Source: an uncultured Dehalococcoidia bacterium (GTDB taxonomy: Bacteria > Chloroflexota > Dehalococcoidia > Lucifugimonadales > UBA3495). From it: a DNA stretch of 64,000 nucleotides. The translations under genes and the position numbers were made by a program. A model generated the notes under the pieces. That model saw only the letters and a list, made by a program, of their open reading frames with translations, did no database searches and was not told the origin of the DNA. Below, one piece after another: positions 10,756 through 18,083 of this stretch (positions are counted from its first letter, which is position 1; each line of letters opens with the position of its first letter). The DNA lies in the NCBI GenBank assembly GCA_958296385.1, contig OY282494.1, positions 1,161,416 through 1,225,415 on the forward strand, read 5' to 3'.

Positions 10756-12633
10756 CTACTGGTACGCCCGGGGCCGGAACTCTGAGGAACAGTACTGCAC
10801 CTGGTCCCAGAACGTCAGGGTGTCCGGGGTTTTGCCGACTACTTCCATGAAATCCCGGGTGGGATTGTCATAGACGATGCACGGCGCCCACAAGGCAATG
10901 TCCGGGAAAGCGAACAGCAGCCCAATCACCACCGCCATACACCCCATAAACGGTAAAACCCCAATGTACACGTCCGTAATCGTGCTTTCTCGTAACACGT
11001 CCTGCGCCGCCGCCGTCTGCTCCGCCATCTGCGCGTCAACGTCCTGTCTAACCCCGTGCAGTATGTAAAGGTTAATCCCCTCCGGCGGGCTGATGAGCGC
11101 CGCCTCTACCAGAATCACCATGATGATGCCGAACCACACCAGGTCCACGCCCACCGCCGTCAGCGATGGCGTGAGGATTGGTATGGTCGTAACCAGCATC
11201 GCGAAACTTTCCATGAAAGTTCCCAGCAGCAGGTAGAAAAACACCAGGATGATGACAAACTGCAAAGCGTTCAGGTTAAGCCCGGTAATCCACTCCGAGA
11301 TGTCCTGCGATATGCCCAGCCTAGCAAAGGCGAAACTGAGCGTAAACGCCGCCATCACGATAAGCATAATCATTGACGACGTGCGTACCGTTGAGATGAT
11401 GGAATCCAGCAGCATCAGCCGCAGCGCCCGGCCGGCGTGCGGCCAGCTCGGATAAGTCGGCGCCGGCAAATCGCCCTTCACGCCGACAATGTAAATCGCA
11501 ATGTACCACAAGGGCGGGAACAAAAACCCCAGCAGGGTCATCGCAATCACGCTGCCCGGCAATTCCTCCTGGTGTTCCCGCAGGTAATCGTCCAGCGCAA
11601 ACACCACCACCGGGAATAGCGGAATCCCAATCAGTATCACCGCCAGCGGATTGTTGCTGATTTTCTTGTACAGCTCGTTGGCCAGCGCCACCACCAGCGC
11701 CCCGAACACCCCCAGCGCCGCCGCCTCGGTAGGCGTTGCCCAGCCGGTGTAGATTGAACCCAGCACCACCATAATGATGACCAGCACCGGCACAATTGAC
11801 ATCATCCCAATCAGCGCCCGGAACAGCATCGACGACCACGCCGCGATGCCCTCCCCGTAAGACAGGGTTGAACGCCCCCGCCGGTAGTTCCGCCGGTCGC
11901 GCGGGTCGGCAATGCCAGCTTCGGTAGCCTGCTCTTGCCGCATCACCGCCAGCTGCTCTTCGCTGTAACGGCGTACCCTGATGCCGTGGAACCACGCGCG
12001 ATACAGGCGCCGCACTTCATCATCCATCGGCGCAGTCCCCGGAAAGATGATTGACGTTATAACCATCATCAGAATCATCGTGGACGCCAGCAGGAAACCC
12101 GGCAGGAACCCGCCCATGTACAGCCGCCCGATGGATTCCTCCACCAGCACCCCGAAAATAATCAGCCCGATGCTTGGCGGTATCAGAATCCCCAGCGTGC
12201 CGCCAGCCGCCAGTGACCCGATCACCAGCCGCTCGCTGTACCCCCGCTGCCGGAACGACGGCAGGGACACCCGGCTGATGGTCGCCGACGTTGCCACGCT
12301 CGAACCGGAGCAGGCGGCAAACACCGCGCAGGATGCAATGTTCGTGTGCAGCAGCCCGCCGGGCAGAAACACCAGCCAGCGCGACAGCGCCCCGTACATC
12401 CGCTCCCCCATCCCGGAGCGCAGCATCAGCTCGCCCATCAGCAGGAACAGCGGCACCGCCACCAGAATAAAGTTGGTGTTGCTTTCCCACGCCTTGTTGC
12501 CCAGGATGTTCCACAGCGGCGCATCCGAGAACGCCTGCATCATCACCAGCGAAAGCACGCCCAGCGCGCCCGCTACGTAGAGGCCGAGGAGGAAAAATAC
12601 CCCCATCATGCTGAATGCGGCGATGATTGCCAT
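10756..12633 (-). CDS. TRAP transporter large permease (DctM type)
   Basis: A 625-residue multi-pass membrane subunit that carries solute with sodium in tripartite ATP-independent transporters. The N-terminal half reads as a standard DctM (FILVAVPLFLLMGELMLRSGM, SGSSVATSATI, GTLGILIPPSIGLIIFG). Usual DctM proteins are about 425 residues; here the middle is expanded by a hydrophilic stretch (about 220-265) and extra hydrophobic helices, as in a known long subclass. The C-terminal part (LVVTTIPILTPSLTAVGVDLVWFGI in spirit) has the family's proline-rich hairpin. It is read in order after the binding protein and small permease, so all three probably form one system. Confidence 0.93.
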   Translation of the reverse strand: MAIIAAFSMMGVFFLLGLYVAGALGVLSLVMMQAFSDAPLWNILGNKAWESNTNFILVAVPLFLLMGELMLRSGMGERMYGALSRWLVFLPGGLLHTNIASCAVFAACSGSSVATSATISRVSLPSFRQRGYSERLVIGSLAAGGTLGILIPPSIGLIIFGVLVEESIGRLYMGGFLPGFLLASTMILMMVITSIIFPGTAPMDDEVRRLYRAWFHGIRVRRYSEEQLAVMRQEQATEAGIADPRDRRNYRRGRSTLSYGEGIAAWSSMLFRALIGMMSIVPVLVIIMVVLGSIYTGWATPTEAAALGVFGALVVALANELYKKISNNPLAVILIGIPLFPVVVFALDDYLREHQEELPGSVIAMTLLGFLFPPLWYIAIYIVGVKGDLPAPTYPSWPHAGRALRLMLLDSIISTVRTSSMIMLIVMAAFTLSFAFARLGISQDISEWITGLNLNALQFVIILVFFYLLLGTFMESFAMLVTTIPILTPSLTAVGVDLVWFGIIMVILVEAALISPPEGINLYILHGVRQDVDAQMAEQTAAAQDVLRESTITDVYIGVLPFMGCMAVVIGLLFAFPDIALWAPCIVYDNPTRDFMEVVGKTPDTLTFWDQVQYCSSEFRPRAYQ

Positions 12634-12725: not shown

Positions 12726-13397
12726 TTACACCCCGGCTGCGGCTTCCTGCACCGTCTGTTCCTGGGCCAGCTCCGCAATGTCCCCGCCTGAACTCTTGTG
12801 CCAGATTTCCAGCAATCCCCGCACAATCATGCTCAGCATCCATTGGAACGAAGTGAACGCCAGCATCGAGAAACCGACGGCTACTATCATCTGGACCAGC
12901 CAGAGCTCCGGCAGGAAGTTGCCGATGAGATAGGTATTCGACAAAGCCGGTTCGCAAATCCCCTCGGCGTTAGTGCGGATGCACTTCGACTCGGCCACTT
13001 CCTCCCAGCTTTTGATGGCGGTAATCAGCCCAAAGAACCCCACCGACGCCAGCGCCAGCCAGTCCGCCGTGGAGCGCATATAAGGATGGATGCGGGAGAA
13101 CAGCGGCAGCAGCACGTCAATGCGGACGTGCGAACCCGTGCGCAGCGAGTACGAGAACGCCCAAGTCCCGGCAAAGGCCAGAATATAGCCGCCGATGAGC
13201 TCCTGATTCCCCAGCACCGGCCCGACGCCGAACTTCCGCACAATCACCTGGTACGTGATGTAGAGTCCCAGTAGCAACAACATCGTGCCGCAAATGTATC
13301 CGAGAATGCGATACAAAAAGTCCAGACCGGCGTCTATCTTGTTGATGGCCCGCGTCAGCGTCACCGTTACTCTTGGCGATGCGGCTTGCGTGGTCAA
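12726..13397 (-). CDS. TRAP transporter small permease (DctQ type)
   Basis: A 223-residue four-helix membrane subunit of the TRAP transporter. It shows helices at the N-terminus (ILGYICGTMLLLLGLYITYQV), the NQELIGGYILAFAGTWAF segment and the HVRIDVLLPLF motif characteristic of DctQ. The TTG start at 13397 is preferred because GGAGG sits 6 nt upstream; the longer GTG start at 13415 would lie upstream of that ribosome binding site. The large permease begins 92 bp downstream and the binding lipoprotein is upstream on the same strand. Confidence 0.9.
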   Translation of the reverse strand: MTTQAASPRVTVTLTRAINKIDAGLDFLYRILGYICGTMLLLLGLYITYQVIVRKFGVGPVLGNQELIGGYILAFAGTWAFSYSLRTGSHVRIDVLLPLFSRIHPYMRSTADWLALASVGFFGLITAIKSWEEVAESKCIRTNAEGICEPALSNTYLIGNFLPELWLVQMIVAVGFSMLAFTSFQWMLSMIVRGLLEIWHKSSGGDIAELAQEQTVQEAAAGV

Positions 13398-13617
13398 CTG
13401 GAACCTCCAAATCACGGGTTAGGGGTATTCTACAGCGGTTATGATGGACGGCGCCCACCGCGTTTGCCAGCAGCGCCGCCCCTTTCGCACGATTGCGTAG
13501 TCTATGGGCCGGAGCATCGCTTGTCAACCTGCGCCGGTCACTTCGGAAAACTGCGCAACCCCGTCCTGCCTATTGTCATTCTTCCCTGTGCCCGGAACGA
13601 CAACAGCAAGCGGCGGA

Positions 13618-14799: not shown

Positions 14800-14991
14800 T
14801 TCCGCTCCAAAGCCCGTCAATTTGCGTACATTCCCAAGCGCCCGCTACAAACACCTCACTGGTCCCATTTGGCGCCGATTGTATGGCAGCCCAAAAGCAT
14901 TGTCAATTACACCAACCCCCCCGCCCGCATCCCGTCCCAAACAGCCCAATCACCCCCGACACCGTAGCAGCGCCCTTGCCCCAAGGCTACG

Positions 14992-15583: not shown

Positions 15584-15617
15584 TAAAAACCGGGCCGCCT
15601 CTTTCAAGACGGCCCGG
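15584..15617 (-). terminator. intrinsic terminator of the two-domain binding protein gene
   Basis: On the minus strand an 8-bp perfect stem (CCGGGCCG/CGGCCCGG, plus strand 15590-15597 with 15610-15617) and a 12-nt loop are followed by TTTTT. It lies 34 bp after the stop codon at 15651 and should separate this gene from the downstream TRAP operon. Confidence 0.85.
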
Positions 15618-15650
15618 CGTTGTACTCTCCGCTGGTTCGGGTTCGGCTAT

Positions 15651-18083
15651 CTACTCAATCGCGGATGCCGTCCCGTCGGCGTTAATCGTCACTTTGACGA
15701 TTGGCGCCACCAGTTCGTTAAAGATGACCGCCGCCTCCGACGTCGGCCCGCCGACGCGATCTACCCAGCCGGGTACCACGTTCTGGATGGCCGACTGCCG
15801 TTGCGCCGCTTTCATCTCGGGAGTGAACTCCACGAGTTTCATCCCCTCTTTCACGTTCTCCGCGACAGCGGTCGGCGCAAAGTGCTCAAACAGCAGCTGC
15901 CGGTTCAGGTACGCGTGGCGCGCCCCCTCTTCCAGCACGATGTTCTGCAAGTCCGGAGGCATCTGGTTCCAGCGGGAATGGCTGATGGTGAACCAGCTGT
16001 GACCCACCGAAACGATCGGCCCCACCAGGTAATCCGCCACTTCGTACCAGCGCAGCCCATGTCCGCACGAACCGCAGGAGATGGCGCCGTCAATGACGCC
16101 TCGCTCCAAAGCGGTGTACACGTCGGCAAACGCGATGAACTGCGGGTCAGCTCCCATTCCCGACAGCAGGTCGCTCAGCACGGTGCTGTGGCTCCGCACC
16201 TTCATGCCCTGCAAGTCCTCCAGCCCCTCCACCTGCGGCTTGGCGAATATGTAGTTGTGCGCCGTCATCATATAGGCCACTTGCACGCCGCCGTTCTCGT
16301 CGGTCACCTCCGCCATCCTCGGCTGGATCGCGTCAATCACCGCCAGCTGCGCATCCTGCGTCGGGAACAGCCCCCACAGGTTGCTCATGTCCATAATCGG
16401 GTGGTCGCCGCCCACGTAGCCGGAGTAAATCTGCGCCGAGTCCAGCGTCCCATCCTCAACCAGCCGCAGCGAGTCCGGCCCGCCGATGCCCAGTTCCGGG
16501 AATGACGACACCTCAAACTCCACCTGCCCGTTGGTCCGCCGCTTGACCCGTTCCACAAAGCCGATGTCCTCGGTTTCCTTGTAGTTCCCGATGGCCAACC
16601 CGCAGTCCACCAGCGTCCGGTTGATGCAGGCCATCTGCATCTGGAAGCTCTCGCCCTCCGAAACCAGCGGCGTCAGGTTAAAGTTGATGCCGCTTTCCTC
16701 TCCGCAAGACCAGCCGGACGGACTGCCGCCCCCGTGCGTAGCGGGTACTGCCGTCCCAACGTCGCCGTCGCACTGCGTGGTAGCGATGGCCTCCTGGCCG
16801 CCGTTGGGCGAATCCACGATGTCAATACACACGTCGCCGACACCGCGCCCATCGCAGTTCACGGCGCTGGTCATCATCATCGCCTCAACTTCACTGGCGG
16901 TTCCGTCGGGATTGATAGTCACCCCAACGATTGGGCCCACCTTCTCGTTAAAGATAGCCACGCCCTCCGAGTTGGCGCCGCCGGCCCGTTCCACCCAGTT
17001 GGGAATAATCAATTCCATCGCGGTAGCCCGCATCTGCGCCTTGACGTCATCCGGAAAATCGCTGTAGGTCATCCCTTCGCCTTCGTTCAGCGTAATTCCC
17101 GCCGGGTCCCAGTCCGATTTGAGCAGACGCAGGTTCTCCGCCTCGAATTCCTGCCCAACCTCTTTCAGGACGGCCTGGCTTTCCGGCGTCAATTCGCCCC
17201 ACTTCTCACCGTTGAGGGTTACGTAGGTAACGCCAATGGAACCCACGATTGGCCCGTACAGGTATTCGGTAACTTCGTACCAGCGCTGCCCGTAGCCGGG
17301 CGTGCCGCCGGTGATGCCCGCGTCCAGCACGCCTCGCTCCAGCGCCGTGTACACGTCCGCAAACGCAACAAACTGCCCCTCAGCCCCCAAACCCTCCAGC
17401 AAGTCCCCCAGGATGGTGCTGTGCTGGCGAATCTTCTTGTCCTTGTAAGCGCTAAGAGTCTCCAGCGGCTCGCGGCTGAAAACGTACTGGTTCGGATAGT
17501 AGGCGCGGAAAATTGGCTCGCCGCCGGTAGCCTCGCGCAAAATGGCAATCATGTCATCTTCGATGGCATCAGAGAGCGCCAGGTGAGCGTCGTTGCTGGG
17601 CGACAGGCCCCAAAGATTCCCCACGTCAATGATGGGCAGGTCACCGCCCACGTAACCGGAGTAAATCTCGGCAAACTCCAGCGTCTGGTCGTCCACCAGC
17701 CGGATGGTGTCCGGGCCGGCCAGGCCCAGTTCCGGATAGGACGAAATCTCAACCGTCACCGTGCCGCCCGTCCGTTCACTGACCTTTGGCACGTAGAAAT
17801 CGCGAATCAGCTCGCAGGGCCGCAGCGTCCGGTTGATGCAAACCACTTGCAGCGTAACCGGCTCCTGGTCAGCCATACTGGTTGACATCGCCGAGTCGGG
17901 CGCAGTCGTTGCATCGGCTGCCGCCGGCTGCGCCGGCGCCGCCGACGATGATTCCCCGTCGCCATTGCCACCGCCGCAAGCCGCCACCGCCAGCATTAAC
18001 AAGGCGATACCGGCCCCGGCAATAATAGCGCGCCAGGGTACAGTTACGGAGCGAATCGGGTTCATTCTCCTCGCGTTCGGCAT
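15651..18083 (-). CDS. two-headed TRAP solute-binding lipoprotein (tandem DctP domains)
   Basis: A single 810-residue reading frame. It has a signal peptide with lipobox AVAAC (Cys 36), a low-complexity linker, a first DctP domain (about 75-400), a linker with several Cys (from Cys 410 on) and a second complete DctP domain (about 475-810). Both domains carry the CINRTxxxC motif (Cys 82/90 and 486/494), a PELGxxGPDxxRLV segment, the ligand-binding Arg (KKIRQHSTILGD and MKVRSHSTVLSD) and FADVYTALERGV. Normal DctP proteins have one domain of about 330 residues. The ATG at 18083 has GGGAG 5 nt upstream. The permease partner is presumably the neighbouring DctQM pair. No frameshift or internal start is needed. 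Confidence 0.92.
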   Translation of the reverse strand: MPNARRMNPIRSVTVPWRAIIAGAGIALLMLAVAACGGGNGDGESSSAAPAQPAAADATTAPDSAMSTSMADQEPVTLQVVCINRTLRPCELIRDFYVPKVSERTGGTVTVEISSYPELGLAGPDTIRLVDDQTLEFAEIYSGYVGGDLPIIDVGNLWGLSPSNDAHLALSDAIEDDMIAILREATGGEPIFRAYYPNQYVFSREPLETLSAYKDKKIRQHSTILGDLLEGLGAEGQFVAFADVYTALERGVLDAGITGGTPGYGQRWYEVTEYLYGPIVGSIGVTYVTLNGEKWGELTPESQAVLKEVGQEFEAENLRLLKSDWDPAGITLNEGEGMTYSDFPDDVKAQMRATAMELIIPNWVERAGGANSEGVAIFNEKVGPIVGVTINPDGTASEVEAMMMTSAVNCDGRGVGDVCIDIVDSPNGGQEAIATTQCDGDVGTAVPATHGGGSPSGWSCGEESGINFNLTPLVSEGESFQMQMACINRTLVDCGLAIGNYKETEDIGFVERVKRRTNGQVEFEVSSFPELGIGGPDSLRLVEDGTLDSAQIYSGYVGGDHPIMDMSNLWGLFPTQDAQLAVIDAIQPRMAEVTDENGGVQVAYMMTAHNYIFAKPQVEGLEDLQGMKVRSHSTVLSDLLSGMGADPQFIAFADVYTALERGVIDGAISCGSCGHGLRWYEVADYLVGPIVSVGHSWFTISHSRWNQMPPDLQNIVLEEGARHAYLNRQLLFEHFAPTAVAENVKEGMKLVEFTPEMKAAQRQSAIQNVVPGWVDRVGGPTSEAAVIFNELVAPIVKVTINADGTASAIE

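Follow-up and report, generated by a model that had tools for sequence, protein, structure and literature searches.

A single gene in the window, as we call the whole 64,000-nucleotide stretch of DNA analysed here, encodes an 810-residue DctP protein in which two solute-binding domains (heads D1 and D2) follow one lipoprotein signal peptide. In the textbook view of TRAP transporters, one single-domain receptor serves each permease. We consider it probable, with moderate confidence, that the two-headed protein is tethered to the membrane as a double receptor that serves a single DctQM permease and binds two carboxylates, or else one ligand with two different affinities.

Results

A two-headed DctP lipoprotein in one reading frame

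The fusion gene, complement(15651–18083), is a single 810-residue frame on the minus strand that begins with an ATG at 18083 and ends with a stop codon at 15651; the plus-strand reading of the same interval is interrupted by stops. We assigned the following features to it.

15651..18083, minus strand: two-headed DctP lipoprotein, 810 aa (open reading frame, two DctP matches, conserved in relatives)
17976..18083, minus strand: lipoprotein signal peptide, residues 1–36, lipobox LAVAAC36 (sequence by eye, modelled helix 17–35)
16884..17861, minus strand: head D1, residues 75–400, A-type, motif ITGGTPGYGQRWYEV, Arg219 (domain match, model, alignments, tree)
16647..16883, minus strand: spacer, residues 401–479, with Cys 410, 419, 438 and 460 (predicted disordered at 401–469, no Pfam match)
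15654..16646, minus strand: head D2, residues 480–810, B-type, motif ISCGSCGHGLRWYEV, Arg630 (domain match, model, alignments, tree)

The Pfam DctP family (PF03480) matched two stretches of the fusion protein (whole protein E 4.9e-50, 170.9 bits, cut-off 23.4), each head on its own exceeded the curated PF03480 cut-off in a genome-wide domain scan, and the NCBIfam model TRAP_S1 also gave two matches. A DctP receptor is a single domain of ~300–330 residues; the fusion has two domains in 810 residues and is therefore a variant of the DctP-type receptor. Its export signal consists of the lipobox, recognized by eye, and a single N-terminal helix at residues 17–35, evident in the sequence and in an AlphaFold2 model. 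Cys36 was present in 14 of the 14 aligned rows that span the signal region, a region missing from 5 of the 19 rows.

The AlphaFold2 model, based on 19 two-headed proteins, contains two confidently folded heads (ten-residue blocks with pLDDT of 71–96 and one block at 60). The spacer between them is predicted to be disordered, with pLDDT below 50 at residues 401–469. The overall pTM was only 0.49, and thus no fixed arrangement of the heads is predicted. When the model was compared with the PDB using Foldseek, the best 50 matches, for which the matching head is not specified, were mostly TRAP receptors, and the top fold match was 2pfy, titled a pyroglutamate-binding receptor; by model and search, the fusion has the TRAP receptor fold.

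The initial annotation had described an 810-residue DctP tandem in one frame with one signal peptide, whose halves both keep the ligand-binding Arg and a CINRTxxxC motif and are linked by a Cys-containing spacer. Each part of this description stands: the open reading frame, the two PF03480 matches and lipobox Cys36 establish the tandem, R219 and R630 are the binding Arg residues, CINRTxxxC supplies C82/C90 in D1 and C486/C494 in D2, and the spacer contains the four Cys residues listed above. The tandem gene at 15651–18083 is real, with the correction that it lies on the minus strand.

The heads belong to different clades and differ at a pocket motif

D1 and D2 are 48% identical over 323 columns, and P2, the product of a neighbouring single-headed gene, is 49% identical to D1 and 53% identical to D2. 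Alignment to solved DctP proteins, rather than to SiaP itself, places R219 and R630 at the position of SiaP Arg-147. In the alignment of two-headed proteins, R219 was found in 19/19 rows and R630 in 18/19, with Phe in its place in L045 (L and G numbers denote loci and genomes, respectively). Among full-length DctP sequences, 96.8% have an equivalent of Arg-147, which selects carboxylates (excerpt of PMC4646407). The CINRTxxxC Cys pair, at the first strand (C82/C90 and C486/C494), is kept in both heads of 19/19 aligned two-headed proteins and could possibly form a disulfide near the pocket.

At the position of the ENP motif of the solved protein 4nn3, A- and B-type heads have their own motifs, TGGTPG or TGGEPG in D1 and D3 heads and SCGSCG or SCGTCG in D2 and D4 heads. 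ENP is thereby replaced in both fusion heads, and DctP6 and DctP7 (2pfz and 2pfy) likewise lack it there. These two proteins were also the best solved sequence matches of D1 (2pfz, E 1.2e-11; 2pfy, E 4.9e-10), and their titles as pyroglutamate-binding receptors provide only a lead to the ligand of D1.

In a tree of 53 heads, D1 grouped with D3 (17 rows, support 100/100). Two other groups, D2 and its relatives (14 rows, 100/100) and D4 plus P2 (7 rows, 99/98), stood apart from D1/D3; the fork uniting the D2 and D4 sides had support of only 91/83. The same groups were recovered in a first tree of 80 heads. These head types are paired in several ways. The D1–D2 pairing is found in the window and seven relatives, D3–D4 in L004, L006, L008, L009 and L010, D3–D2 in L011, and D3 with a second D3-side head (D3–D3′, A–A) in the second gene of L007. 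A D2-side head precedes a distant head in one frame in L047, and a D4-side head shares one frame with a D2-side head (B–B) in L045 and L046. Lone heads are of the D4 type in the window (P2) and L014, and of the D3 type in L054. Because the records of L011 and L007 are at chromosome level, chimeric assembly is less likely in these two, though possible. P2 may have lost a D3 head, or the relatives may have acquired one. On an rpoB tree with an unresolved genus base, the window genome (G000) and G007, each with a lone D4 head, were not sisters. The 830 bases that separate the fusion gene from P2 contained no trace of a former head, either by tblastn (best E 0.19) or by blastn (no match).

Both heads might nevertheless bind the same ligand, in which case the fusion would only raise the number of sites per lipid anchor and thus avidity or capture capacity. 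Fold, Arg and CINRTxxxC are common to the two heads, and same-class pairs exist (A–A in the second gene of L007, B–B in L045/L046), but the heads of D1–D2 and D3–D4 proteins fall in different supported clades with conserved, distinct pocket motifs (GGTPG/GGEPG versus SCGSCG/SCGTCG). We therefore regard a shared ligand as unlikely, while leaving it some weight.

The fusion gene lies near dctQ and dctM, apparently in its own transcription unit

The minus-strand gene order is two-headed P, P2, DctQ, DctM, and the following features were assigned downstream of the fusion gene.

15589..15618, minus strand: terminator-like hairpin, 13 pairs, 9 of them G–C, directly 3′ of the fusion gene (consensus scan)
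14878..14906, minus strand: promoter-like site TTGACA-17-TACAAT, 11/12, before P2
13618..14820, minus strand: P2, single-headed DctP lipoprotein with a D4-type (B) head (open reading frame, domain match, tree)
13499..13527, minus strand: promoter-like site TTGACA-17-TAGACT, 10/12, before dctQ
12726..13415, minus strand: DctQ small permease (PF04290, E 5.4e-12)
10756..12633, minus strand: DctM large permease, 625 aa, including ~65–70 additional residues (PF06808, E 8.5e-73)

DctQ and DctM partners (QM) are thus close by in the window, and this linkage varies among relatives. Six relatives have a second two-headed gene at the place of P2, and the signal peptide of P2 is similar to that of the D3–D4 genes in some relatives. 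What we read in the window looks like three transcription units (fusion, P2 and QM) rather than one P-Q-M operon, because a hairpin immediately 3′ of the fusion gene, and promoter-like sites ahead of Q or of the following P gene, are found again in L005, L008, L010 and L013. Taken as a whole, the scan exceeded background only modestly, with 5 promoter-like sites against 2.4 expected and 9 terminator-like sites against 6.5 expected.

The earlier proposal was that one chain could bring two ligands, or one ligand at higher local concentration, to a single permease; delivery to a single permease fits L005 and L013, where the fusion is the sole DctP gene adjoining QM (DctM is split in the L005 assembly, and the fusion gene is interrupted in that of L013). 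Two features of the window genome count against pairing the fusion with QM: the gene immediately upstream of QM is P2 and not the fusion, and a separate terminator-like site follows the fusion. The fusion could instead be an orphan receptor for another carrier, or a sensor, that does not work with the neighbouring QM. The window genome has two DctM genes, one of them an orphan (G000:C1:2727761), and this orphan, L065, could be the partner of the fusion instead. A separate transcription unit, as called by consensus scan, would fit such a role, as would the relatives in which fusion and QM are unlinked. In G001 and G006, QM has no DctP gene within the stretch read (L066, L067), fusion and QM being on different contigs or ~1.4 Mb apart, and in G008 QM is divergent (L068); in these three genomes the link between fusion and QM is therefore one of genome content only. 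The contig of G002 ends at Q. Additional two-headed genes likewise have no QM in the stretch read (L045, L046, L047 and L055). Against an orphan role, no other DctP gene separates the fusion from QM in L005 and L013, and the fusion shares strand and order with QM in the window, L006, L007, L008, L010 and L014. On this evidence, we think it quite improbable that the fusion serves something other than the neighbouring QM.

Two observations concern the DctM proteins themselves. The orphan DctM-like permease L065 (7723–9342, minus strand; G000:C1:2727722–2729341) had no DctQ or DctP match in the surrounding 18 kb. In the DctM encoded at 10756–12633 on the minus strand, the extra ~65–70 residues lie at residues ~325–392 and include two hydrophobic runs; this stretch is present in G000, G001, G002, G003 and G009 and absent from G005–G008 and G010–G013. 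G007 and G009 are near-sisters on the rpoB tree and differ in the extra stretch, which suggests two DctM lineages that have been exchanged.

The spacer has conserved pairs of cysteines

No match was found in a Pfam search of the 79-residue spacer, and the possibility that it is a known domain was rejected. A spacer with the pattern CDG...SP.G.SCG is common to D1–D2 genes, the D3–D2 chimera L011 and L045/L046; D3–D4 genes have a short spacer without it. Cys 438 and 460 occur in all nine D1–D2-type rows (L011 included) and in L045/L046, and Cys 410 and 419 occur together in 7/9 D1–D2-type rows; the two exceptions, L004 and L011, retain neither. This pairwise co-occurrence in nine related sequences suggests that the spacer may contain two disulfides, 438–460 in all cases and 410–419 in most.

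Dimeric TRAP receptors exist, including a helix-swapped dimer (excerpt of PMC1839085), and tandem heads would fix a 1:1 pair, so the fusion might be a covalent stand-in for such dimers. The spacer, however, is long and predicted to be disordered, the model has a pTM of only 0.49, and short- and long-spacer forms coexist, leaving only a slim chance that the fusion replaces a dimer.

Both heads are conserved among relatives

A scan of bacterial genome contigs found 11 related loci, in records of Chloroflexota/Dehalococcoidia metagenome-assembled genomes (MAGs), one of them titled SAR202; from isolate names, we take the relatives' MAGs to be sponge-derived, and the window bacterium is likewise taken to be sponge-associated. 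Both heads are in an unbroken single frame in eight of these loci (L004–L011), although in L010 the contig end cuts off the start of the gene. L012 consists of two overlapping frames, L013 is interrupted, and L014 is truncated within D2 by the end of its contig. The L004–L011 proteins are 71–86% identical to the window protein.

Comparison of the window copy with L004–L010 (7 of the 8 comparisons run) gave dN/dS values of 0.063–0.097 for D1, 0.061–0.101 for D2 and 0.115–0.230 for the spacer, and comparison with L011, which has a different type of first head, gave 0.259, 0.079 and 0.178, respectively; many dS values exceed 1, and these ratios are hence rough. Judged by them, D1 and D2 are both under purifying selection. 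Decay of one head was rejected because the ratios are low in both. The D1 branch of the window is unusually long (0.17 versus 0.010–0.12 in the seven other D1 rows).

Frameshift or misassembly, the source of error named by the initial annotation, was rejected on the strength of the unbroken frames in 8 of 11 loci. Broken frames at the fusion gene in 2/11 loci (L012 and L013) indicate that errors or decay do happen in these MAGs, but the window genome is a single contig, the eight one-frame loci include the chromosome-level records L007 and L011, D2 has no second signal peptide ahead of it, and the spacer itself is conserved, so the notion that an artefact fused two normal genes, contradicted already by intact homologues, has next to no probability.

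Two-headed receptors form a small family centred on one genus

At least one intact two-headed DctP frame was found in 9 of the 14 genomes of the window genus, with 18 such proteins in total. Among the remaining five genomes, G002 has part of D1 plus D2 in one frame, G005 an interrupted copy, G007 a copy cut at a contig end, G004 fragments, and G011 a single head beside QM. DctP occurs in 27 of the 50 family genomes overall, and 1 of the 13 DctP-bearing genomes outside the genus (G014) encodes a two-headed protein, which forms its own lineage. In a sample of 400 genomes from the phylum, DctP was present in 70, and two complete domains in one frame were found in at least one, the window's own; this count is a lower bound, as no more than five candidates were scored for some genomes. 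The fusion is not alone, and its family is small and occurs mainly in one genus of Chloroflexota, in SAR202/Dehalococcoidia MAGs. Of 597 plasmid records with a DctP match, 0 covered 80% of the query at one place, and the one annotated plasmid record that we inspected encodes a conventional P-Q-M set with a single-headed receptor. DctP domains number only three in the window genome, all of them in the cluster of the fusion gene.

Several related receptors contain extra sequence. In many single-headed relatives (L033, L036, L038, L048–L053 and L057–L061), an N-terminal extension with the shared motif AGGPGAIYVGD... lies between lipobox and head, and the motif also occurs in the linker of L055, a separate two-headed protein. 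L045 (3919–4500) and L046, with frames of 918 and 925 residues, have added sequence ahead of the first head, which in L045 weakly resembles a fibronectin type III domain (E 0.0098, short of the Pfam cut-off). In another genus, G025 and G035 have 15 and 19 DctP matches, respectively, a local expansion of single-headed receptors.

Discussion

Each head resembles DctP-type receptors (PF03480; Bordetella DctP6/DctP7 and H. influenzae SiaP) in sequence and conserved Arg, and the model resembles them in fold; unlike them, the fusion combines both heads, with a Cys-containing spacer between, in a single lipid-anchored chain. We found no description of a two-headed TRAP receptor in the literature covered, with preprints and most subscription papers outside that coverage, and found SAR202 TRAP transporters in general mentions only. 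Fourteen TRAP proteins are reported in five SAR202 genomes, with no architecture given (excerpt of PMC5395668). QM fusions occur in a small proportion of TRAP systems and Q-P fusions are rarer still, P-P fusions being unmentioned in the excerpt (PMC8276074), and an excerpt of another article mentions QM fusions only (PMC5812351). Like these QM and P-Q fusions, the protein described here combines subunits in one chain, in this case P with P. The TAXI lipoprotein BP0403 is also an elongated, multi-domain TRAP-type lipoprotein, but it belongs to a different subfamily, has only one binding domain and has GltS as its partner (excerpt of PMC12344293).

A parallel may be GlnPQ, which also has two binding domains in tandem; these differ in specificity, serve one transporter and bind independently, and the rate of transport depends on linker length (excerpt of PMC8025302). 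GlnPQ is an ABC system in which a 19-residue linker connects the domains to the membrane subunit and 14 residues connect one domain to the other, whereas the fusion belongs to a TRAP system and is a chain of its own, held by a lipid anchor, not joined to a membrane subunit and with a Cys spacer of 79 residues. By analogy, the fusion may work like the GlnPQ tandem domains on a TRAP system.

If the fusion is a double receptor for DctQM, each head would capture a carboxylate of its own, or both would capture the same carboxylate with unequal affinities, and then close, and the closed heads would dock in turn on the neighbouring DctQM elevator. Lipid at the N-terminus would hold head 1 near the membrane, and head 2 would extend on a tether of ~79 residues that is probably disulfide-stapled. 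Because the fusion gene appears to be transcribed separately and head pairing differs among relatives, the fusion would be an interchangeable receptor module, broadening the uptake of one permease alongside single-headed P2. More tentatively, and with our doubts somewhat outweighing our confidence, the family as a whole may be a combinatorial receptor system in which divergent DctP heads are recombined in tandem on lipid anchors, with lone D3 and D4 heads in addition, such that one TRAP permease gains new ligand sets by swaps of heads rather than of permeases.

The TRAP permease is described as a monomeric elevator (excerpt of PMC10774421), and the presence of up to four heads beside one QM pair raises the question of how several receptors share one permease of this type. 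Natural variants with one head, two heads or swapped heads provide a ready comparison set. The family also opens the question of whether head pairing might set the diet of abundant sponge symbionts.
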